Positions 14,501 to 37,113 of a stretch of DNA of 49,421 nucleotides are shown here, piece after piece. The position numbers and the translations under genes were made by a program. Numbering within the stretch: the stretch's first letter is position 1; each line of letters opens with the position of its first letter. Below the pieces are notes generated by a model, which was given only the letters and a program-made list of their open reading frames with translations, did not search any database and was not told the DNA's origin. The stretch lies in the NCBI GenBank assembly GCA_018333535.1, contig JAGXTA010000025.1, positions 1-49,421 of the forward strand, read 5' to 3'. Origin of the DNA: Deltaproteobacteria bacterium (GTDB lineage: Bacteria > Desulfobacterota > BSN033 > UBA1163).

Positions 14501-14716
14501 TTATTTCATATATTCATCGCCTATATCTCTGAGAGTGGCTTCTGACCATTCTAAAGCTTCTGTTTCACGTGCCTCATCTTGAGCCATCTTGCGGTATGCT
14601 GCTTCAAAGCTTGGTTCGTAAACAGGGATAATTGGTAATTTCTTCACCTTCGCCCACTCTTCTATTGGAAAAGATGATCCTTTTGTAAAAATAATCAACT
14701 TTACCAATAATGTCAA
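14501..14716 (-). CDS. Small ORF of unknown function after the response regulator
   Basis: 71 codons from a TTG that overlaps the response-regulator stop as TTGA. The last 55 residues (PIEEWAKVKKLPIIPVYEP; MAQDEARETEALEWSEATL) look protein-like and resemble the acidic tails of small antitoxins, but I do not recognise a family. The first residues are less convincing, so it could be the 3' remnant of a longer gene. Translational coupling to the regulator is possible. Confidence 0.4.
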   Translation of the reverse strand: MTLLVKLIIFTKGSSFPIEEWAKVKKLPIIPVYEPSFEAAYRKMAQDEARETEALEWSEATLRDIGDEYMK

Positions 14717-16146
14717 TCTTCTTCTGAGACGAGCACTTCTTTTTTGATATGGTACCGATCCATCTTGCCCCGGAGGGTGCTCCGATTGATTCCGAGCAGT
14801 GAGGCGGTCTGGACCTGGTTTCCATTTGTCTTTTGAAGGGCGCGAATAATCAGCCCTTTTTCTATGGCCGAGACCATATCCAGGCTTTCCTGGGCTAAAG
14901 GATTCCCTGTTAATTCCTCAAAGAGGGAATCGACAAGCTTCTCGAATGTTCTCCTGTCCCGAACCTCACCGGACTCCCGTCTCTCTTCTACTTCAAGAAG
15001 GAGCTGATCGTCAAGTATCCATTCTCCCTGACACAACAACATTGCCCTTTTCAAAACATTTTCAAGTTGCCTCACATTGCCCGGCCATCCATAGGAGGAA
15101 ATCTTTCCCATTGCTCCGGGGGTAATTCCAACCACTCTCTTTTTCAACTCGTGGTTGAACTTCCTCAAGAAGTAGGAGACGAGAGCGGGAATGTCCTCCT
15201 TTCTTTCCCTCAAGGGCGGAATCTTGATAGAGACCACATTGAGCCGGTAGTAGAGGTCTTCACGGAATTCCCCCTTTGCGATCGCTTCTTCCAGGTCTTT
15301 ATTCGTTGCCACGATCAATCGGATATCGACCCTGATCGTTTCCCTCCCTCCCAATCTCTCAAAGTTTTTCTCCTGAAGGACCCTGAGCAGTTTGGCCTGA
15401 GTCGAGAGGGACATGTCGCCGATCTCATCGAGGAAAATAGTCCCTCCGTGGCACTGTTCCAGTTTTCCAATACGCCGGGACGAAGCGCCGGTGAAGGCAC
15501 CTTTCTCGTGGCCGAAGAGTTCGCTCTCGAGAAGGGTATCCGGTATGGCGGCGCAATTGACCGGAAGAAAGAGTTGCTCAGAGCGAAGGCTGTGTTGATA
15601 GATGGCCCTCGCCATTAACTCCTTTCCCGTTCCGCTTTCACCCCTGAGAAGGACCGTGACATCGCTGGGAGCCACCTGTCCGATGACTTTGTAAATCTCC
15701 TGCATCCTGGGAGAAGACCCGATGATCTGTTCCTCCTCTTTTTGTTGATCCGGTTCGAAAGCATAGGAGACCCCATCCTTCATCAGTTTCCGTAATGTGA
15801 TCGCCTTTTGCACCAGCTCTTTCATCTGCGGAATCGGGAAGGGTTTCAGGATGTAATCGAAAGCCCCATATTTCATCGCTTCAATCGCCGTCTCTGTGGT
15901 GCCATAGGCTGTCATCAGAATGACAAGGGACTTCGGGTCGACCAACTTTATCTCCTTCAACACCTCGATTCCGCTTCGGCCCGGCATCTTGATATCCATG
16001 ATGATGAGGTCGGGGAGTGATTCTTTCAACCATGACAGCGCTTCATCCCCATTCTGGGCGGTGAGGACGGAGAAGTTCTCCTCTAACATCCTCTTCAGGG
16101 AGTAGCGGATCGATTTGTCATCGTCAACAATCAGGATCGTCTGCAT
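14713..16146 (-). CDS. NtrC-family sigma54 response regulator
   Basis: 477 residues. Receiver domain with Asp51 ([13 protein letters not shown]); AAA+ domain with Walker A GESGTGKE (169-176), the sigma54-contacting loop GAFTGA (216-221) and Walker [11 protein letters not shown]-terminal Fis-type helix-turn-helix ([19 protein letters not shown]). It activates sigma54 promoters after phosphorylation. Its partner kinase lies 182 bases upstream on the same strand, separated by a fold-back repeat. The amtB sigma54 promoter in this window is a candidate target, but the pair could equally control another process. Confidence 0.93.
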
Positions 16147-16328: not shown

Positions 16329-18041
16329 CTAATTTATGGGAAGCCACACAGTGAACAGAGTTCCATTGCCCGGCGAGCTTTCCACCTCGATCTTTCCGTG
16401 GTGCTGGTCGATGATGCGATGGGTGATGGAGAGACCGAGGCCAATTCCTCCTTCTTTTGTGGAGAAGAAGGGGTCGAAGAGTTTATCGATGTCTTCTCCG
16501 GAGATTCCCATGCCGGAGTCCTGGATGGAGAGGTGGATCCATTGACCATCTTCCGAATTTCTCCCCTTCAGGGTCAATAGACCGCCCTCCGGCATGGCCT
16601 GAATGGCATTGAGCAGAAGGTTGAGCATCGCCTGTTTCATCTGCTCAGGGTCGATCAGGATCATGGGCAGGGTTTGGAACTCCCTTTCAACAGCGATGCG
16701 TTGTTTCTCGGCCTGAAGCCTGAGCAATTGAAGAGTCTCTTCGACAATGGAGAGAACGTCGGTTTTTTCAAAGAAAGGGGGGGCAGGTTTTGCGAACCGG
16801 AGGAACTGGTCGACAATCTCATTCATCCGATGGATTTCCTCTTCGATGACTTTCAGGTCTTCCTGCTGAGAATTTTCAGATGGCAGTCTCTCCCTCAAAG
16901 AATGGATGAGGATGTTAATGCTGGTCAGAGGATTTCGGATTTCATGAGCAATTCCTGCGGCTAATTGACCCAGGGCCGCCAATTTTTCGGACCGGATCAG
17001 CTGAGCCTCTGTTTTCCTGAGATCGGCCGTCGTCTTTTGAATCTTCTCTTCCATCTGCCGGCTGAAATTTTTGAGCTCCTGATACATGGAGGCATTCTGA
17101 ATGGCCAGGCCTGCCTGTTGAGCAAACGTCATGACCGAATCGAGCGTCTCCTTCGTCAACCTTCTTCCGGGTTCGGTGTGGTCTGCGGCAATCGCTCCCA
17201 GGACCCTTTCCTTCGTGAAGAGGGGGATGACCACAAGAGAGTGAAGATTGAATTTCTCTTTCAGGACGGGGTTGACCCTTGGGTCCATCCTCGCATCGGG
17301 GATGATATAGGGTTTCTTTTCCATTACGGATCTGGATACAATGCTTGCTTCAGGATCTAAGGGAAGCTCGATCCCCTTGATCTTCTCCACATCGACTCCC
17401 ACAGCCATTTTGCATTCGAGGAGATCCCTCTTTTCGTTGACCAGATAGAGCCGTGCCCGGTCGAATCCGATATTCTTGATCACCCCTTCCAATACGAGTC
17501 TGAGGATTTCGTCGATATCGAGCGTTTCCATCAGGCCGGAGTTTTCAATGCAGATCGCGGCCTGATTGGCCACGGTTGAGAGCATTTCCTCTTCGGACTT
17601 CGAAAAGGTCCGGGGATAGGAGGTGTAACAGTTGATCACGCCGATCACTTTTTCCTTGATGCACATCGGCACGCTGAGCATGGAAACCAGCCCTTCTCTC
17701 CTTGCCAGTTCCTTCTCTTTATAAAGAGGCTCTTTGAGGACATCGACAATAGCCATTGGCTGATTATGAAGGGCGACATGACCCACTACCCCCTCTCCGA
17801 GCCCCAGGCTTCTCTCTTTCAGATATTCCTCGCTGATGCTCTGGGTGGCCTTGAGTTTAAGTTTTTGTTCTCTTTCATCGAGGATCCAGAGAGAACAGAT
17901 CTTCGAATCCATCACATTAGCCGTCACCGTCACAATCAGGCGAAGCACGTCCTCAAGGTAGAGGCCGGAAGTGATCGCCTTGCTGATTTCCAGAAGGGCG
18001 TTGATCTCCCTCGCATCAGAAGTCATTTTCGTCTCCGGCAA
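16329..18041 (-). CDS. GAF-GAF sensor histidine kinase
   Basis: 570 residues, soluble. GAF 1 at about 12-165, GAF 2 at 172-325, coiled coil, HisKA with His366 (AAGIAHEIRNPLTS) and a C-terminal HATPase (LLNAIQAMPEGG, GIGLGLSITHRI). It likely phosphorylates the adjacent NtrC-type regulator. The start may be the TTG at 18041 or the ATG at 18026; both have a plausible RBS. A TATAAT box lies at 18072-18067 on the minus strand. GAF 1 is strikingly similar to the GAF of the ANTAR protein at 36322-37026 (shared runs such as IVTVTANVM.SKICSLW and VIGVINCYTSYP), so both may sense the same signal. Confidence 0.93.
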   Translation of the reverse strand: MPETKMTSDAREINALLEISKAITSGLYLEDVLRLIVTVTANVMDSKICSLWILDEREQKLKLKATQSISEEYLKERSLGLGEGVVGHVALHNQPMAIVDVLKEPLYKEKELARREGLVSMLSVPMCIKEKVIGVINCYTSYPRTFSKSEEEMLSTVANQAAICIENSGLMETLDIDEILRLVLEGVIKNIGFDRARLYLVNEKRDLLECKMAVGVDVEKIKGIELPLDPEASIVSRSVMEKKPYIIPDARMDPRVNPVLKEKFNLHSLVVIPLFTKERVLGAIAADHTEPGRRLTKETLDSVMTFAQQAGLAIQNASMYQELKNFSRQMEEKIQKTTADLRKTEAQLIRSEKLAALGQLAAGIAHEIRNPLTSINILIHSLRERLPSENSQQEDLKVIEEEIHRMNEIVDQFLRFAKPAPPFFEKTDVLSIVEETLQLLRLQAEKQRIAVEREFQTLPMILIDPEQMKQAMLNLLLNAIQAMPEGGLLTLKGRNSEDGQWIHLSIQDSGMGISGEDIDKLFDPFFSTKEGGIGLGLSITHRIIDQHHGKIEVESSPGNGTLFTVWLPIN

Positions 18042-18400: not shown

Positions 18401-19648
18401 TTAAACCCAGCCCCTCAGCTTGCAGGCTTCCGCCACACGGGCCACAGAAACGAGGTAGGCGGCCTGTCTCATATTGACCTTCTCCCTTAAATACATCTGG
18501 TAAACTCCATGAAAACCCCGGGTCATCTTTTCATCCAACCTTTGGTGGATCTCCTCTAATGGCCAATAAAAGTTGTAAGTATTCTGAACCTGCTCAAAAT
18601 AGGATACCGTCACCCCCCCCGCATTGGCGAGGAAATCGGGAAGAACAAAGACATTATTCTGATGGAGGATATCATCGGCTTCGGGTGTCATTGGTCCGTT
18701 GGCCAGCTCACAAGAAATCTTGCACTTGATCCGACCTGCGTTTGCCGCTGTGATCACATTTTCAAGGGCGGATGGGAAAAGAACAGTGACATCCAGTTCG
18801 AGGAGCTCTTCGTTGGTAATGCTCTCGGCTCCCGGGAATCCATGGAGGCTGCCGGACTTAAGCTTATAATCCACCACCTGTTTCGGATCTATCCCTTTCG
18901 CGTTATAAATTCCTCCTCTGGAATCCGAAGCGGCAACCAATTTAAGTCCGAGGAGTTCACTGCCCAACAGAGCGGCGTATTGGCCGGCATTGCCAAAGCC
19001 CTGTATCGCCATGGTTTTGCCCCGGAGATCGATGTTTAGTTGTTTGGCGGCTTCACGCGTGACATAGACGCCACCCCGCGCCGTCGCATCTCCCCGGCCC
19101 TCTGATCCTCCAAGGGGAATCGGTTTCCCCGTGATGACACCGGGATGATGATGCCCAACCATCGTTTCGTACTCGTCCATCATCCAGGCCATAATCTGAG
19201 GAGTCGTATAAACATCCGGAGCGGGCACATCTTTCGAAACCGATATCGTCCAGGCGATGGCCCGAATATAGGCGCGAGCCAGCCGCTGCTTCTCAGCCTC
19301 TGACATCGATTTCGGATTGCAGGTGACCCCTCCCTTTCCTCCTCCCAGGGGAATATCGACCACCGCTGTCTTCCAGGTCATCCAGGCGGCGAGAGCCCGG
19401 ACCGTGTCGATGGTCTCTTCGGGGTGCCATCGGAGGCCGCCTTTTGCAGGCCCCCGGGCGGTGTTATACTGGATTCGATAGGCGTGAAAAATTTGCACCT
19501 TTCCGTCATCCATTTGGACGGGAAGCGTTACCCGCAGTTCCTGCTGAGGCCAACGGAGCAGGTCATGGGTGGCTTGATCTAACCCTAATCTTTCCGCCGC
19601 AGCATCGAGTTGTCTCTGTGCAATCGTAAAAGGGTTCATCTCTAACAT
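18401..19648 (-). CDS. gdhA: Glu/Leu/Phe/Val-type glutamate dehydrogenase
   Basis: 415 residues from the ATG at 19648 (RBS AAGGAG, eight bases). It interconverts glutamate with 2-oxoglutarate plus ammonia. The substrate domain has KGGLRWHPE and the catalytic lysine in PLGGGKGGV, followed by the proton-relay motif PAPDV. The Rossmann domain has [13 protein letters not shown]. Cofactor preference cannot be read with confidence. An upstream in-frame start at 19690 would fall in the terminator hairpin of the leader and is rejected. The gene has its own TTGACA promoter and a hairpin-terminator leader matching the ANTAR antitermination layout, shared with the upstream KaiC/PPDK gene. Confidence 0.95.
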
Positions 19649-19682
19649 ATCTTTTTCTCCTTTTTTGGGATGAATAAAAAAA

Positions 19683-19730
19683 GGCGCCAAATTTCTTTGA
19701 CGCCTTTGTCCTCAATACCCCGTTGTATTG
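19683..19730 (-). promoter_or_regulatory. ANTAR-type dual-hexaloop antiterminator/terminator in the gdhA leader
   Basis: Minus strand, 5' to 3'. Hairpin P1 is CAATAC-AACGGG-GTATTG (19730-19713), then two bases, then P2 GAC-AAAGGC-GTC. The 3' half of P2 is also the start of the terminator GGCGTCAAA-GAAA-TTTGGCGCC (19704-19683), followed by seven Ts. Both loops are six bases with A at position 1 and G at 4, the signature bound by ANTAR proteins. P2 and the terminator cannot form together. The leader ends 34 bases before the start codon. Confidence 0.75.
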
Positions 19731-19740
19731 ATTGATTCAG

Positions 19741-19769
19741 TTTTTAATATAATAACCGTTTTTTGTCAA
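19741..19769 (-). promoter_or_regulatory. Promoter of gdhA
   Basis: TTGACA on the minus strand (19769-19764), followed after 17 bases by an A/T-rich -10 region (TAAAAA; the exact hexamer is uncertain). Transcription would begin close to hairpin P1. Confidence 0.6.
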
Positions 19770-19833
19770 GAAAATAAAATGAGATAAAATGAGATTTCTG
19801 AAAAAGCCCAGAAATCTCTCAATCATCTTTTTT

Positions 19834-22473
19834 TCAGAATGTCGTGGCAACATCCTTATCCAAAAAACATATTGCGTCGTTTAGTTGCGGATCGGCAACC
19901 ACCTGAGCAAACGCGCCTCCCGTTGTTTTAGGCACATCAATCAAGCGCAGGATGGATTCATATTCACCTGCGTGCGGCAATAACTCCAAGAAAATATTCG
20001 GGGCTGTTTTAAAGAATTTTACCTGAAATTCCGAAGCGGTATCATCCGGATAGACAGGCAGATAAATGACCTGCCCCTCCACCAGGTCATTGAAAAAATG
20101 AGTGCCATAAGAGACTTCGGGCACATGGCCGGCTTCTTCCAGGGCTAATTCTACCAATACAGAAGCGTTATCAATGTCGGCGTAGCTTACGTTGACTCCC
20201 AGGGCGATATTGCTTGTGCCCCAACGCCCGGGTCCCATCATCATGATCTTGTTGCCCTGTATTGCAGGATGCCGGTTGATTTGCCCCACTAAACGTCCCA
20301 GAGATTTTTTTGCCTCTGAGGATAGACGGTGGTAACGTTGAGGGTCAATATAAAGAATGTACCGGATTTGCTCCACGAAACCACCACAGATCATGCGGTG
20401 GGCCCGAAAGAGAATCTGGTGCGGTTCCAGGGAGGTCGGCATGGATACATCTTCCATGGAACCCGGAAGAAAGAGCGGACGGCATTGAACCAGGTTGATA
20501 CGAACACGCTCGTCCGAACCCACAAAGGCGGTAAACTCAATATCCACCGGCTGCCCGTAGGCTTCTTCCAGGGTGACTAAAATCTCCCCCATGACCCGGA
20601 CAAAATCAGTTTGGTGGATCAAGTTATTAAAGGTGAGGACCCATTGATTTGTTATCCCTTCTACTTTCCCGGAGACGGGATCGTATGGGTAATGATCGTG
20701 CATCACCGAAACAAAGAGGCGAAGATTGGGATAATGGTTGTCCACCAGGATATCGCTCAAGAATCGGCTGTCAAACCGGTTGGTTTTTAAATCAAGCAGA
20801 TCCACCTGGCGCTGGGAATACTTGGCGACCATGGCTCCCACTTCCGGGCGCAAATTGGGATGGCTAATCGCTACCATGCGGGGGTAATCTGAACCGACCC
20901 TCTCCACTGCGCGCGTTCCCAAACCGAAAACCAGACGGATGATTCCCTGCCGGGTATCAATACGGTCATTCCATGCATAAAGATTTCGAGAGAAGGCTAC
21001 CCCGGCAAGCGTTGGAAAGAAATACTGCCGATAAGGCATGCCCGAAACGCGTTGAACCAGGATCGCCATTTGTTCGTCGGATTCGCCGAGACCCCGCCTG
21101 CTACGGTAGCACAGGGCATCGGGGTTAAGGGCGCTGGCATAAACCAATTTGACAGCTTTCATGAACTCAGCAAGGCGGGTTTCGGGATTTCCCTGGTTTG
21201 CACAAAATATGCTTCGGTATTTTCCGGCGAATGCGTTGCCAAAACTGTCTTCCAATAAACTGCTGGAGCGCACGATGATGGGCGCTTGCCCGTAGTAATC
21301 GAGCATGGCGCGAAATTGTTCTTCAATGGTTGCCGGAAAACGGCCGGCCAAGAAGCGATCTTCGATCTCTTTAAACTCTTCATCGGAGGTGGCTGAATTG
21401 CAGGTCAAGTGCAGCCGTAGCCGGAAGAGGTCGTTATGGACCAGAAAGGTGAAAAAGACATCCGAACCGATATAAAACGAGTCATGGTCCTCCAGCCGTT
21501 CTGTGAGGTTCACCCCGTTTTTTTTCTTTTCTGTCAAGAGAATGCGCCGCGCTAACAACATGCCAGCAGCCTTCCCGCCAATGCGCCCGGCCCCGATTAA
21601 GCGGTTTCGAATGGCAAACAGATCGTCCAACGTGAAATATCTGTCGGCAAGTTGATTAAAGATCGGATGATGGCCAATGAGCATACGGCCCAATTCTTGT
21701 TTTAAGGCCATCTGCTCAGGGTCTGTTTCGTCAAGACCTGACGGATGTTCACGGTAGTGGACGAGTTTTTGATAGACGCTTTCCCAGGGAGCTAATGGTC
21801 TGGTGGTTTCGATGAGTGGAGTGGGATGGGCTGAGGTCAATACCTCTACAGCTTCACTACTGTGGGAGAGGGGCAACCAACTTTCGCCGGCGACGAGATG
21901 AGGTAAAAACATCTGTGGTGAATAACGGTCCCAAACCTTGATAGGGTGAATATGCATCCGGCCTTTGGCTTGGTAGACGTCAACAAGAATTTGGGTCGTG
22001 TCCCGAATGCGGGCTACGGCGGAATGTGCATGTTGACCACGCGTCAGGGCAAAGTAGGCGATCGTGTTCAACTCAAACAAGAAGGGACAGGTGATTTGAA
22101 AAAAATTGGCTAATAGCTCATCCGTCGCCCATTCCACCACCAGGGCCGACAGGTTGTCAAATACATACATGGCTCCGGGGCCGTGGCCTTCAATGAGACG
22201 GTGGACTTCCCGCGTAAAGCTATCGAAACCCAGGCTGGGGTTTAATTCAATCGTTTCCAGACCAGGGCGAGGCGCCAGCACGCACGGGTGAGATGCGAAG
22301 CGTAGATACACAAGGCGCAGGTGGTTAGCGATTGCGGCCTCGGCAAACGGTTCGGCAAAGTAACGGTAATCCTCGAGGCAGTCAACCTGCCAGACGACAT
22401 TGTCGCCTGACCGGATTCCCTGCAACACTTCATCTAAGGCTTGAATGCCACTATGGGTCGTAGTGTGATCCAT
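19834..22473 (-). CDS. KaiC-like (degenerate)/PEP-synthase ATP-binding domain fusion protein
   Basis: 879 residues with two parts. Residues 1-210 resemble a KaiC/RadA-type ATPase (GIQALDEVLQGIRSGDNVVW; Walker-B-like AMYVFDNLSALV), but the Walker A P-loop is gone: DCLEDYRYF stands in its place. The rest is a PPDK N-terminal (PF01326-type) nucleotide-binding domain with GRIGGKAAGMLLARR, PIIVRSSSLLEDSFGNAFAGK, a GLGTRAVERVGSDYPR segment and the closing IEFTA..RINLVQCRPL. The swivelling phosphohistidine domain and the PEP/pyruvate barrel of true PPDK or PEP synthase are absent, so it cannot run the complete reaction alone. It may act as a kinase or nucleotide sensor. The gene has its own promoter and tandem ANTAR-type leader and precedes gdhA. 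Confidence 0.8.
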   Translation of the reverse strand: MDHTTTHSGIQALDEVLQGIRSGDNVVWQVDCLEDYRYFAEPFAEAAIANHLRLVYLRFASHPCVLAPRPGLETIELNPSLGFDSFTREVHRLIEGHGPGAMYVFDNLSALVVEWATDELLANFFQITCPFLFELNTIAYFALTRGQHAHSAVARIRDTTQILVDVYQAKGRMHIHPIKVWDRYSPQMFLPHLVAGESWLPLSHSSEAVEVLTSAHPTPLIETTRPLAPWESVYQKLVHYREHPSGLDETDPEQMALKQELGRMLIGHHPIFNQLADRYFTLDDLFAIRNRLIGAGRIGGKAAGMLLARRILLTEKKKNGVNLTERLEDHDSFYIGSDVFFTFLVHNDLFRLRLHLTCNSATSDEEFKEIEDRFLAGRFPATIEEQFRAMLDYYGQAPIIVRSSSLLEDSFGNAFAGKYRSIFCANQGNPETRLAEFMKAVKLVYASALNPDALCYRSRRGLGESDEQMAILVQRVSGMPYRQYFFPTLAGVAFSRNLYAWNDRIDTRQGIIRLVFGLGTRAVERVGSDYPRMVAISHPNLRPEVGAMVAKYSQRQVDLLDLKTNRFDSRFLSDILVDNHYPNLRLFVSVMHDHYPYDPVSGKVEGITNQWVLTFNNLIHQTDFVRVMGEILVTLEEAYGQPVDIEFTAFVGSDERVRINLVQCRPLFLPGSMEDVSMPTSLEPHQILFRAHRMICGGFVEQIRYILYIDPQRYHRLSSEAKKSLGRLVGQINRHPAIQGNKIMMMGPGRWGTSNIALGVNVSYADIDNASVLVELALEEAGHVPEVSYGTHFFNDLVEGQVIYLPVYPDDTASEFQVKFFKTAPNIFLELLPHAGEYESILRLIDVPKTTGGAFAQVVADPQLNDAICFLDKDVATTF

Positions 22474-22498
22474 TTGGAGTATCCTCTTTATATCTTAC

Positions 22499-22550
22499 AA
22501 AAAAGCATCACATGAGCTCGACGCCTAAGTCTATTTTACCTCTTTGTATC
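22499..22550 (-). promoter_or_regulatory. Second, decayed ANTAR-type hairpin/terminator unit in the KaiC/PPDK leader
   Basis: Downstream of the intact terminator, minus strand: TAC-AAAGAG-GTA (22548-22537, same loop as intact P1), then GAC-TTAGGC-GTC (22531-22520), whose GCGTC can pair with GATGC (22509-22505) ahead of six Ts. This repeats the P1-P2-terminator order in weakened form; the loop A1 of P2 has become T. Confidence 0.5.
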
Positions 22551-22554
22551 AAAC

Positions 22555-22609
22555 GAAAAAAGGGGTCAAATTTCTTTGACCCCTCTGTCTCCAATACCTC
22601 TTTGTATTG
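22555..22609 (-). promoter_or_regulatory. ANTAR-type dual-hexaloop antiterminator/terminator in the KaiC/PPDK leader
   Basis: Minus strand, 5' to 3'. P1 is CAATAC-AAAGAG-GTATTG (22609-22592), two bases, P2 GAC-AGAGGG-GTC. The terminator is GGGGTCAAA-GAAA-TTTGACCCC (22583-22562) with six Ts. Loops have A1 and G4. The terminator stem differs from that of gdhA at two positions yet keeps pairing (GGCG/CGCC versus GGGG/CCCC), evidence of a conserved structure. Confidence 0.78.
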
Positions 22610-22617
22610 ACAAATAA

Positions 22618-22646
22618 AATCTACTATAAAAGGGAGCCTTTGTCAA
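22618..22646 (-). promoter_or_regulatory. Sigma70 promoter of the KaiC/PPDK gene
   Basis: TTGACA (22646-22641), 17 bases, TAGATT (22623-22618) on the minus strand. The predicted start is just before hairpin P1, so the leader RNA begins with the ANTAR target. Confidence 0.75.
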
Positions 22647-22657
22647 ACAAAATGAAT

Positions 22658-22745
22658 GCTATCCTCCCATTTTGTCGGTGAGGAGAATGGCCTCAGCAAT
22701 CTCCCGCATGGTCTTACGGCTGTCCATGCTGGCTTTGCGGATCCG
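22658..22745 (-). pseudogene. 88-bp copy of the 3' end of the GAF-ANTAR gene
   Basis: Identical base for base to 36321-36408, covering the last 28 or so codons and the stop of the GAF-ANTAR antiterminator gene (ASMDSRKTMREIAEAILL...). Homology begins one base beyond the stop codon and ends abruptly in GGATCCG, where KaiC/PPDK-like sequence starts. Directly downstream is the promoter of the intact KaiC/PPDK gene. Confidence 0.9.
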
Positions 22746-23020
22746 CCGCCACCTGAGTATAGGTGCCCCCCATTGTTTTAGGCACGTCAATCAAGGGCAA
22801 GATGGATTCATATTCGCCGGCAACGAGATGGGGCAAAAACATCTGCGGTGAATAAGGGTCACAAACCTTATCGGGATGAATCTACATCCGGCCTTTGACA
22901 TGATATACGTCAACCAGAATTTGTGTGATGTCCAGAATTCGGGCTACTGTGGAATGGCTATGTTGACCACGCGTCAAGGCAAAATCGGCGACCGTGTTCA
23001 ATTCATACAGAAATTGTGAC
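22746..23020 (-). pseudogene. Degenerate, internally deleted second copy of the KaiC/PPDK gene
   Basis: 22746-22818 matches the 3' part of the intact gene (about 19898-19970). 22819-23020 matches a 5' part (about 21886-22080). Both are diverged by several substitutions and no frame stays open. The join falls at a shared CGCCGGC-like word (intact copies TTCACCTGC and TTCGCCGGC), pointing to a deletion of roughly 1.9 kb between short homologies. It shows that a tandem second gene once stood upstream of the present one. Confidence 0.8.
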
Positions 23021-23759: not shown

Positions 23760-23776
23760 ATATTTACATGGCTACA
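23760..23776. repeat. Left copy of the ATATTTACATGGNTACA direct repeat
   Basis: ATATTTACATGGCTACA overlaps the stop region of the transposase gene. The same 17-base word (with G for C) occurs in the same orientation at 25522-25538 beyond the other end of the gene. IS ends would be expected in inverse orientation, so this may be a duplicated target or a regulatory word rather than a TIR. Confidence 0.45.
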
Positions 23777-25475
23777 GTCCAAGGAGTTGAAAGGCCCTGT
23801 TCTGTAGCGGAGTCATTTCTGTCACTTGATAAAAAGTGGATCCCTTGGGACCAGATTTGATTTGGCAATGGTTTCGGCATCGTGTTCCAAATTCTTTTAA
23901 GAGGGTATTGAAGCTCTGGACAGCCAAACCTTCTGGAGTAAGACGTTGTGTCTTCTTCTTTTTGGCCGATGCAGATACTTGGGCGGGTTTCACCGGGTCT
24001 CGCTTCTTGCGATTCTCATCCAGATCTTCATCGTCAAACAAAAGCGGGGAGAGTGCTTTTCGCATATGCCATTCCACATAATAAGCCAGCATGCAGATAA
24101 AGATGTGGGCCCGCACATGGTCCTCCGTATGATGCCAGATCGGACGGATCAACAGATCGATCCCCTTAAAACTTCTAAAAGCACGCTCCACTTGTGCAAG
24201 ATTCTTATAGCTCCGTACGGTATCTTCGGCAGATAGACACTCGGCTGATTCGCTGGTGCGAATCACATAAATCCCATCCAATGCTTCTTCACGTTGAATC
24301 TGTGCTTCATTACGAACGAATGAAAAGCTCCCCTCTCCGATGGTTACCATAAAGTGCTTTCCTACTTTAAAACGGCCGATCACCTTGCCCACTTTTTTAC
24401 CTATCTCGTCTTTGCCAAAAGGGGTTCTGCTCCGACCCGCAACTTGCTTGGCAATTCGTCCCAACTCCTTTTCGGTCGCCCTCAATAACTCTTGCCGCTT
24501 GCGCCCTCTCTGCTCGGCCAACAACGGATTAAAACAGGCCACTAATCGCTCCGAAGGAAACTCGGGAGATCGAATCTCGGCAAGGTCCTTCTGATCAAAT
24601 AACGACATCTGCAGATACCCGTTCTCCACTAAGTCTCGGATCGCATGGGAACGTAATGCCGAAATCCATCCGAGTCCCGAATACTCTTTGAGCTTCTCTA
24701 TCTGTGTCTGCGTCAACATCCCCCGATCTCCTACCAAAACCAGACGGCTCAACCCAAATCCCTTCCGCAGTTTCTCCGCCTGATCTGACACGGTACTCGG
24801 ATCTCCTGTGTCTCCCGGATAAACCTCCACAGCCACCGGACACCCCTGGCCATTGGTCATCAACCCATAAACAATAATCGGCCTCCCCTTCTTCCCATCC
24901 CGATCATGACCAAAACGAGCCAATGGACAACTCCGCCCCTCATAATAACTGCTCGTCACATCATAAAGCACCAACGACCCCTCCGAGAGATGACGAGACG
25001 CCAACTTCTTCTCGATCCGTTGCTGCCTGCCCAATAACCAGTCCATTGCCTCATAAAGATCATCCTCATCGGCATCGCTCACCCCCAGTTCTTCTGATAG
25101 CGTCGTCATGTGCCACAACCGTGTTGTCGCTAACTTCGAACAAGGATGAATCAACCGCTCAGCAATCATGGCCATAACCAGATCCCGCTCACGGCAATGC
25201 GTGGAGGCGATGAGTCCATCCAACCCAAGTTTCTTAATCGTTCCTAGTACTGCTTCCACATGACCATGAGGGATAGATCGTTCAATCACGAAAGCCTCTT
25301 TGGAGGCTACCAGGGTCTCATTCTTCAGAACACACCGCAGGGCTTCCACTTTTTCTGAGGGCCAATGGGTAAGATTGGCAATGGTTCGTTTGCGAATCTT
25401 CTTTCCTTCACGCCATGCTTCGCGCAGCAGGACGGCAGGTGGGGAGTTACGATTGGGGATGCGCTCAATAAACAT
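23772..25475 (-). CDS. IS1634-type (IS4 group) DDE transposase
   Basis: 567 residues and apparently intact. N-terminal signature VLLREAWREGKKIRKRTIANL; catalytic core with LVLYDVTSSYYEGR (first Asp), LVLVGDRGML (second Asp) and YKNLAQVERAFRSFKG (Glu), followed by VRAHIFICMLAYYVEWHM. It cuts and joins the IS ends. The ATG at 25475 follows an A/T-rich leader. I could not define inverted repeat ends. The element separates the decayed KaiC/PPDK region from the exported-protein operon. Confidence 0.93.
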   Translation of the reverse strand: MFIERIPNRNSPPAVLLREAWREGKKIRKRTIANLTHWPSEKVEALRCVLKNETLVASKEAFVIERSIPHGHVEAVLGTIKKLGLDGLIASTHCRERDLVMAMIAERLIHPCSKLATTRLWHMTTLSEELGVSDADEDDLYEAMDWLLGRQQRIEKKLASRHLSEGSLVLYDVTSSYYEGRSCPLARFGHDRDGKKGRPIIVYGLMTNGQGCPVAVEVYPGDTGDPSTVSDQAEKLRKGFGLSRLVLVGDRGMLTQTQIEKLKEYSGLGWISALRSHAIRDLVENGYLQMSLFDQKDLAEIRSPEFPSERLVACFNPLLAEQRGRKRQELLRATEKELGRIAKQVAGRSRTPFGKDEIGKKVGKVIGRFKVGKHFMVTIGEGSFSFVRNEAQIQREEALDGIYVIRTSESAECLSAEDTVRSYKNLAQVERAFRSFKGIDLLIRPIWHHTEDHVRAHIFICMLAYYVEWHMRKALSPLLFDDEDLDENRKKRDPVKPAQVSASAKKKKTQRLTPEGLAVQSFNTLLKEFGTRCRNHCQIKSGPKGSTFYQVTEMTPLQNRAFQLLGL

Positions 25476-36321: not shown

Positions 36322-37026
36322 CTATCCTCCCATTTTGTCGGTGAGGAGAATGGCCTCAGCAATCTCCCGCATGGTCTTACGGCTGTCCATGCTGGCTTTG
36401 CGGATCCGTTTGAAAGCCTCGTCTTCGCTCAATCCCTGCCGCTTCATCAGCACTCCTTTGGCCCTCTCAACCAGTTTCCGGATCTCTAACTCTTCCTGGA
36501 TCACTTTGGTCTTGACCATCAACTCCGTGCTTTCAATGCAGATAGCAGCCTGACTGGCAACAGCGGTGAGCATGTCCTTCTCCGCCTCGGTAAATTGATG
36601 GGGATAAGAGGTATAACAGTTGATCACCCCGACGACTTTGTCCTTTATGGCAAGGGGAACGCTGAGCATGGAGACCAGGCTTTCTTTTCTGGCCAGCTCT
36701 TTCTCCTTGTAGCGGGGCTCCTTCAGGACATCGAGAATGGTCAGGGGCTTTTTCGTCTGGGCCACATAACCCACCACTCCCTCCCCTAATTTTAGAATCC
36801 TCTCCTTCAGGTATTCTTCGCTCATGGTCTGGGTGGCCCGGATTTTCAGAACCTTCTCCTTCTCGTCGAGAAGCCAGAGGGAGCAGATCTTCGAACCCAT
36901 CACGTTGGCCGTCACCGTCACGATCAATTTGAGAATGTCATCCAGATACCGGTCAGAAGAGATGGCCTTGCTGATTTCCGTCAGGGCCTTGATCTGTTGT
37001 TTATAGGATGCTTTTTTATAGAGCAA
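36322..37026 (-). CDS. GAF-ANTAR transcription antiterminator
   Basis: 234 residues from the TTG at 37026 (RBS AAGGAG, eight bases). The longer frame to 37089 would start upstream of the mapped promoter -10 and is rejected. A GAF domain (15-165) is followed by an ANTAR RNA-binding domain (LEIRKLVERAKGVLMKRQGL...AFKRIRKASMDSRKTMREIA). ANTAR proteins bind paired hexaloop hairpins and prevent terminator formation. The GAF is a close relative of GAF 1 of the kinase at 16329-18041. Candidate targets in the same window are the gdhA and KaiC/PPDK leaders. The last 88 bases are duplicated at 22658-22745. It is convergent with the NnrS-like gene. Confidence 0.92.
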   Translation of the reverse strand: MLYKKASYKQQIKALTEISKAISSDRYLDDILKLIVTVTANVMGSKICSLWLLDEKEKVLKIRATQTMSEEYLKERILKLGEGVVGYVAQTKKPLTILDVLKEPRYKEKELARKESLVSMLSVPLAIKDKVVGVINCYTSYPHQFTEAEKDMLTAVASQAAICIESTELMVKTKVIQEELEIRKLVERAKGVLMKRQGLSEDEAFKRIRKASMDSRKTMREIAEAILLTDKMGG

Positions 37027-37057
37027 CGGGAAGACTCCTTTCTTCTTGGTAGGAATT

Positions 37058-37086
37058 AATTTACAAAAAAGGTGGACGATTGTCAA
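37058..37086 (-). promoter_or_regulatory. Sigma70 promoter of the GAF-ANTAR gene
   Basis: TTGACA (37086-37081), 17 bases, TAAATT (37063-37058) on the minus strand. It places the transcription start about 25 bases before the TTG start codon. Confidence 0.75.
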
Positions 37087-37113
37087 CACAACAAGGGAAC
37101 TATGTTGTAAGTC

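Follow-up and report, generated by a model that had tools for sequence, protein, structure and literature searches.

Two leaders upstream of gdhA and the KaiC/PPDK gene

The window, meaning the whole 49,421-nucleotide stretch of contig JAGXTA010000025.1 that was analysed, belongs to a 4.39 Mb, 97% complete genome (G000) of an uncultured Thermodesulfobacteriota lineage, with MAGs such as JASEHH01 and VGSS01 as its named neighbours. Its minus strand encodes a glutamate dehydrogenase and a KaiC/PPDK fusion protein, both behind a structured leader:

18401-19648 (-), gdhA, glutamate dehydrogenase (PF00208/PF02812), ATG start at 19648
19680-19707 (-), 12-bp intrinsic terminator in the gdhA leader, capped by GAAA and overlapping P2 with its 5' arm (folding, covariation)
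19699-19710 (-), P2 hairpin of the gdhA leader, loop AAAGGC at 19707-19702 (sequence, alignment, folding)
19712-19731 (-), P1 hairpin of the gdhA leader, loop AACGGG at 19724-19719 (sequence, scan, alignment, folding)
19764-19769 (-), -35 element TTGACA of the gdhA promoter, also kept before the gdhA leaders of relatives
19834-22473 (-), KaiC/PPDK gene, encoding a KaiC fold that lacks Walker A (residues 1-217), the ATP-binding domain PPDK_N (about 262-673) and a conserved C-terminal part
22499-22552 (-), decayed second (tandem) ANTAR leader (28 bits; intact counterpart in the relative G007)
22559-22586 (-), 12-bp intrinsic terminator in the KaiC/PPDK leader, capped by GAAA (folding, covariation)
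22578-22589 (-), P2 hairpin of the KaiC/PPDK leader, loop AGAGGG at 22586-22581 (sequence, alignment, folding)
22592-22610 (-), P1 hairpin of the KaiC/PPDK leader, loop AAAGAG at 22603-22598 (sequence, scan, alignment, folding)
22618-22646 (-), sigma-70 type promoter TTGACA-17-TAGATT upstream of the KaiC/PPDK leader (promoter listing)

Read from the window sequence, the gdhA leader spans 19731-19680 and consists of P1 TCAATAC(AACGGG)GTATTGA, P2 GAC[AAAGGC]GTC and the terminator AAAGGCGTCAAA-GAAA-TTTGGCGCCTTT-T run. The KaiC/PPDK leader (22610-22559) has the hairpins TCAATAC(AAAGAG)GTATTG-GA-GAC[AGAGGG]GTC and the terminator AGAGGGGTCAAA-GAAA-TTTGACCCCTTT. Both leaders thus contain two hairpins of at least 3 bp with a 6-nt loop, and all four hexaloops have A1 and G4. 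A window-wide search for pairs of adjacent A1/G4 hexaloop hairpins with a T-run behind them retrieved only these two elements and had no matches in 20 mononucleotide shuffles, which confirms the anatomy and the loop rule given in the preliminary description. An Rfam scan matched no family at the leaders or elsewhere in the window. The TTGACA promoter described before both leaders held in part: the hexamer is present at both, but a good -10 element only at the KaiC/PPDK leader, the gdhA promoter having a weak TAAAAA at 17 bp (19746-19741). The gdhA product scored 600 bits against NF040817, under that model's cut-off of 750. A TTG at 19690 was rejected as the gdhA start, since it falls within the terminator, and the ATG at 19648 is the likely start.

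When folded at full length, both leaders formed P1 and the terminator (z of -6.0 for gdhA and -5.5 for KaiC/PPDK); when truncated after P2, they folded as P1 and P2, so that P2 and the terminator are mutually exclusive, as a switch for antitermination requires. Of the changes between the two terminators, one is a two-sided pair swap (C-G to G-C) and two are one-sided. The P1-P2 linker is 2 nt with a 6-bp P1, or 4 nt if only the conserved 4-bp core of P1 forms, and its length is mostly fixed among relatives. Folding of the tandem copy at 22552-22499 indicates that the leader fold has been lost.

Leaders, targets and the GAF-ANTAR protein in related genomes

A covariance model detected leaders in 16 out of 17 family genomes, with one to seven per genome, and an IUPAC pattern search returned 31 matches against one for the backward control. 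Loop positions were counted in 38 leaders aligned by script, 37 from the family and one from G068. Position 4 of the P1 loop is G in all 38 and that of the P2 loop in 36, the exceptions including leaders whose P2 the script had misplaced; position 1 is mostly A and sometimes G, and in the P1 loop it is one of these two in 37. In a 16-row gap-free alignment, P1 and the terminator contained 19 double-change cells against 5.1 in shuffles, none of 500 shuffles being as high, and slid controls dropped to about half of the paired cells or fewer. P2, with only 3 bp, is nearly invariant and therefore lacks covariation support of its own. The search of related genomes proposed in the preliminary description, which would have counted against it had the A1/G4 loops not been conserved, thus found them conserved and the stems of P1 and the terminators to covary.

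Beyond the family, model R1 scored at most 31 bits, at a site that has no ANTAR leader, and R1 is therefore family-specific; scores of 25-31 bits were accepted only where the position recurs (before glnA-c19). With relaxed criteria, the regions 5' of 78 genes from other families, either nitrogen-related or KaiC/PPDK, yielded one good leader, at the GOGAT gene of G068, and those of 297 other genes yielded none. An imperfect ANTAR-like leader lies at about 1485-1570 of L191 (G140, another family), before a gdhA of a different 451-aa subfamily; it has one P1 mismatch and T at P2 loop position 1, and the contig also carries an ANTAR gene. The KaiC/PPDK-gdhA-ANTAR locus of G287 (L160) yielded no leader.

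The targets in the family are gdhA, a glutamate-synthase-like gene (GOGAT; PF01645) and a glnA-led operon whose next gene encodes FAD, Fe-S and glutamate-synthase domains. Gene content thus points to nitrogen assimilation as the family's regulon, consistent with the link to glutamate metabolism first proposed from the window. Leaders before the glutamate-synthase-like gene often occur two or three in tandem; three are found at L087:14571-14735 and two at L089:13567-13679, each set before one such gene. Those of the glnA operon lie mostly 3' of a sigma-54-like TGGCA-N-TTGC element, and in the window's own genome the glnA-c19 leader, with a G-U in P2, is located behind the sigma-54-like element TGGCATGTGTTTTGC. 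Before glnA-led operons at L088:9159, L108:5272, L112:8739, L205:519, L207:360 and L208:4454, the ANTAR leader comes straight after a sigma-54-like promoter. Together, promoter and leader would place these operons under two layers of nitrogen control.

Nitrogen genes, including those for glutamate synthase and glutamine synthetase, are known ANTAR RNA targets (PMC3369931). The claim that ANTAR control of the KaiC/PPDK gene is undescribed must accordingly be narrowed: leaders of glutamate synthase and glutamine synthetase have been reported, the KaiC/PPDK leader is inherited from GOGAT (see below), and, as far as checked, gdhA and KaiC/PPDK alone may be targets not described before.

The likely effector, a GAF-ANTAR protein, is encoded in the window, as originally described, together with a histidine kinase and a response regulator downstream of gdhA:

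36322-37089 (-), GAF-ANTAR gene, the genome's only intact ANTAR gene (domain search)
16329-18041 (-), GAF-GAF-histidine kinase downstream of gdhA, first GAF 68% identical to that of the GAF-ANTAR protein
14713-16146 (-), NtrC-type response regulator adjoining the kinase (ORF; conserved gene-order cluster c3)

Exactly one intact ANTAR gene was detected in each of the 17 family genomes, often close to a leader. This provides a clean target set for a GAF-ANTAR protein, an architecture reported to lack a characterised example as of 2012 (PMC3369931), and a sole ANTAR per genome makes the pairing of protein and RNA unambiguous. The closest solved relatives of its GAF are the GAF domains of PtsP-type enzymes, and NifA matches too. 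Across 14 genomes, this GAF and the first GAF of the kinase are 68-75% identical, from which we infer that both proteins read a common nitrogen or carbon signal. That the antiterminator and a kinase encoded nearby have this GAF in common (~70% identity) suggests that a single signal is read at the RNA as well as the promoter level.

The KaiC/PPDK protein and its gene neighbourhood

An AlphaFold2 model of the KaiC/PPDK protein was built from 29 orthologues (mean pLDDT of 82.6). Residues 1-217 match the KaiC/RecA fold (Z of about 20-21 with KaiC, rmsd of about 3 A over about 200 residues), as in the superfamily ATPases 1tf7 and FlaH (4yds). However, identity to these is about 15%, and the Walker A GKT is absent, its position being occupied by GDNVVWQVD with an invariant GDN-V motif. 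The PPDK_N assignment is strong (Pfam, E 9e-47). In the model, the best structural match of the middle part is rifampin phosphotransferase (5hv1; Z of 25.1, rmsd of 2.9, 293 residues), and the ATP-binding domain of PEP synthase (2ols) matches with a Z of 23. The motifs GGKAAGM, VRSSSLLED and QCRP, which we take to be the ATP-binding residues of PPDK_N, are conserved and partly aligned to solved structures. In contrast to rifampin phosphotransferase and PEP synthase, no His swivel and no PEP-binding barrel were detected by Pfam beyond PPDK_N, and full-length NCBIfam models scored far under their cut-offs. The fusion, which had been described as PEP-synthase-like, is therefore not a PEP synthase, its ATP-binding domain being the only part detected. 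A 435-aa protein with a KaiC-like N-terminus (~31% identical to the KaiC part of KaiC/PPDK), an HTH and a cupin is encoded beside the ANTAR or GOGAT gene in relatives (L101:6571-7878 and L096:13596-14903).

Nor is the protein an orphan. In 21 of the 39 loci examined outside the family, the 21 being spread over 11 taxonomic families, gdhA is no more than 3 kb from KaiC/PPDK, and some nitrogen gene lies within 5 kb in 29 of the 39; a rough estimate from the size of the genomes puts the chance expectation for gdhA at such loci well under 1%. The neighbouring glutamate dehydrogenases belong to two subfamilies, 57-60% identical to GdhA of the window in one and about 32% in the other, and their orientation varies. 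At L139, NrpR genes are found alongside KaiC/PPDK. This gene order argues that KaiC/PPDK is nitrogen-linked. A literature search of open-licence papers for a link between KaiC/PPDK and glutamate dehydrogenase returned nothing relevant, and we consider this phylum-wide tie the stronger novelty, compared with leaders of a known type. Since the tie extends to at least 11 taxonomic families, the function of KaiC/PPDK is directly testable. As a tentative proposal, which we favour less than its opposite, it may be an unrecognised nitrogen-control protein that combines a P-loop-less KaiC fold with a PPDK-type ATP-binding domain to modify or regulate glutamate dehydrogenase or glutamate synthase. It would then be conserved next to the genes for these enzymes throughout Thermodesulfobacteriota and connected to the nitrogen regulator of each lineage (ANTAR, NrpR, NtrC or P-II).

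Origin of the KaiC/PPDK leader, proposed mechanism and alternatives

In the close relative G007, the gene order is GAF-ANTAR, two leaders, GOGAT, KaiC/PPDK, a further leader and gdhA, with KaiC/PPDK starting 40 bp after GOGAT. The G007 GOGAT had no match in the window genome. G006 has kept the leader, with GOGAT reduced to a 107-residue stub, and in G004 both are gone, ANTAR being directly followed by KaiC/PPDK. The G007 order, the absence of GOGAT, these two intermediates and the decayed second leader together indicate that the leader now before KaiC/PPDK once belonged to a GOGAT gene, whose deletion placed KaiC/PPDK behind its promoter and switch. The ANTAR leader before KaiC/PPDK is thus real as judged from sequence, but derived. 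The window also carries a relic upstream of this leader:

22683-23019 (-), two pieces of a KaiC/PPDK copy (84% nucleotide identity) joined to the final 88 nt of GAF-ANTAR, which are 100% identical to the intact gene

We are confident in an overall reading in which both leaders are ANTAR-dependent transcription attenuators of a nitrogen regulon, with KaiC/PPDK brought behind the switch by the GOGAT deletion; that the leaders are working ANTAR attenuators is very probable from their sequence. By default, the nascent RNA would form P1 and the strong terminator, and transcription would end before gdhA and KaiC/PPDK. Through its GAF domain, the single GAF-ANTAR protein would sense a nitrogen-status signal, perhaps 2-oxoglutarate or glutamine, and an ANTAR dimer would then bind the A1/G4 hexaloops and hold P2, which would block the terminator because its 5' arm contains P2. 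The mechanism is modelled on EutV (PMC3369931, PMC8934654); ANTAR binding, antitermination, the signal and the continued function of the KaiC/PPDK leader are predictions.

EutV and the eut leaders of Enterococcus faecalis, as well as the predicted regulons of Desulfotomaculum reducens and D. acetoxidans, share with our system dual A1/G4 hexaloop hairpins with P2 overlapping the terminator, several leaders per genome and nitrogen targets including glutamate synthase and glutamine synthetase (PMC3369931, PMC8934654). Here, however, the effector is a GAF-ANTAR protein, the linker is shorter, the targets include gdhA and KaiC/PPDK, and the lineage is Thermodesulfobacteriota. The linker counts against the attenuator reading: it is formally 2 nt, or 4 nt with the P1 core alone, compared with 5-12 nt in eut, where shortening to 3 reduced induction (PMC3369931). 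The short and nearly invariant P2 and the negative Rfam scan are further points against. In NasR/nasF and AmiR/amiE, an ANTAR protein likewise overrides a leader terminator through an A1/G4 hexaloop hairpin, but NasR has a NIT sensor, AmiR relies on a partner protein, and their targets are other genes.

Terminator-like hairpins are common in the region and the gdhA leader sits downstream of the KaiC/PPDK gene, as would be expected if the leaders were plain intrinsic terminators of upstream genes with a chance hairpin in front. Nevertheless, KaiC/PPDK has a separate terminator-like hairpin at 19818-19791, P1, both hexaloops and their spacing are conserved and covary in the 38 leaders, and the leaders lie, singly or in tandems of two or three, just 3' of promoters and 5' of nitrogen genes, so that we give this explanation almost no weight. 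Less easily set aside, although we still think it unlikely, is that only the gdhA leader works, the one before KaiC/PPDK being a leftover of the deleted GOGAT operon that plays no part in regulating KaiC/PPDK. GOGAT is missing from the window genome, the second tandem leader has decayed, and KaiC/PPDK has no leader directly in front in the relatives G002, G009, G013, G015 and G016. Against this, the first leader retains an intact promoter, P1, P2 and terminator, and in G007 the placement of KaiC/PPDK just past GOGAT, behind the same leaders, implies that operon control predates the deletion. Given the decayed copy behind it, the KaiC/PPDK leader may be drifting.

KaiC/PPDK could also owe its place beside the ANTAR gene to a role as partner or sensor of the GAF-ANTAR protein, as AmiC is for AmiR and NasS for NasT. 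The two genes are adjacent or near each other in G004, G006, G007, G009, G013 and G016, and are fused in the window's relic. However, 13 of the 23 genomes tested outside the family have no ANTAR protein at all, 11 of these 13 carry a full-length KaiC/PPDK, and in ANTAR-less genomes the gene is found mostly beside gdhA or other nitrogen genes. We regard such a role as improbable, and the version in which KaiC/PPDK is an obligate ANTAR partner was dropped, given the many KaiC/PPDK genomes without ANTAR.

The junction of the relic at 22683-23019 shows CGGATCCGCAA microhomology, and there is a slight chance of an assembly artefact at the relic. A DDE transposase gene (23772-25475), possibly involved in the rearrangement, lies between the relic and the intact GAF-ANTAR gene.
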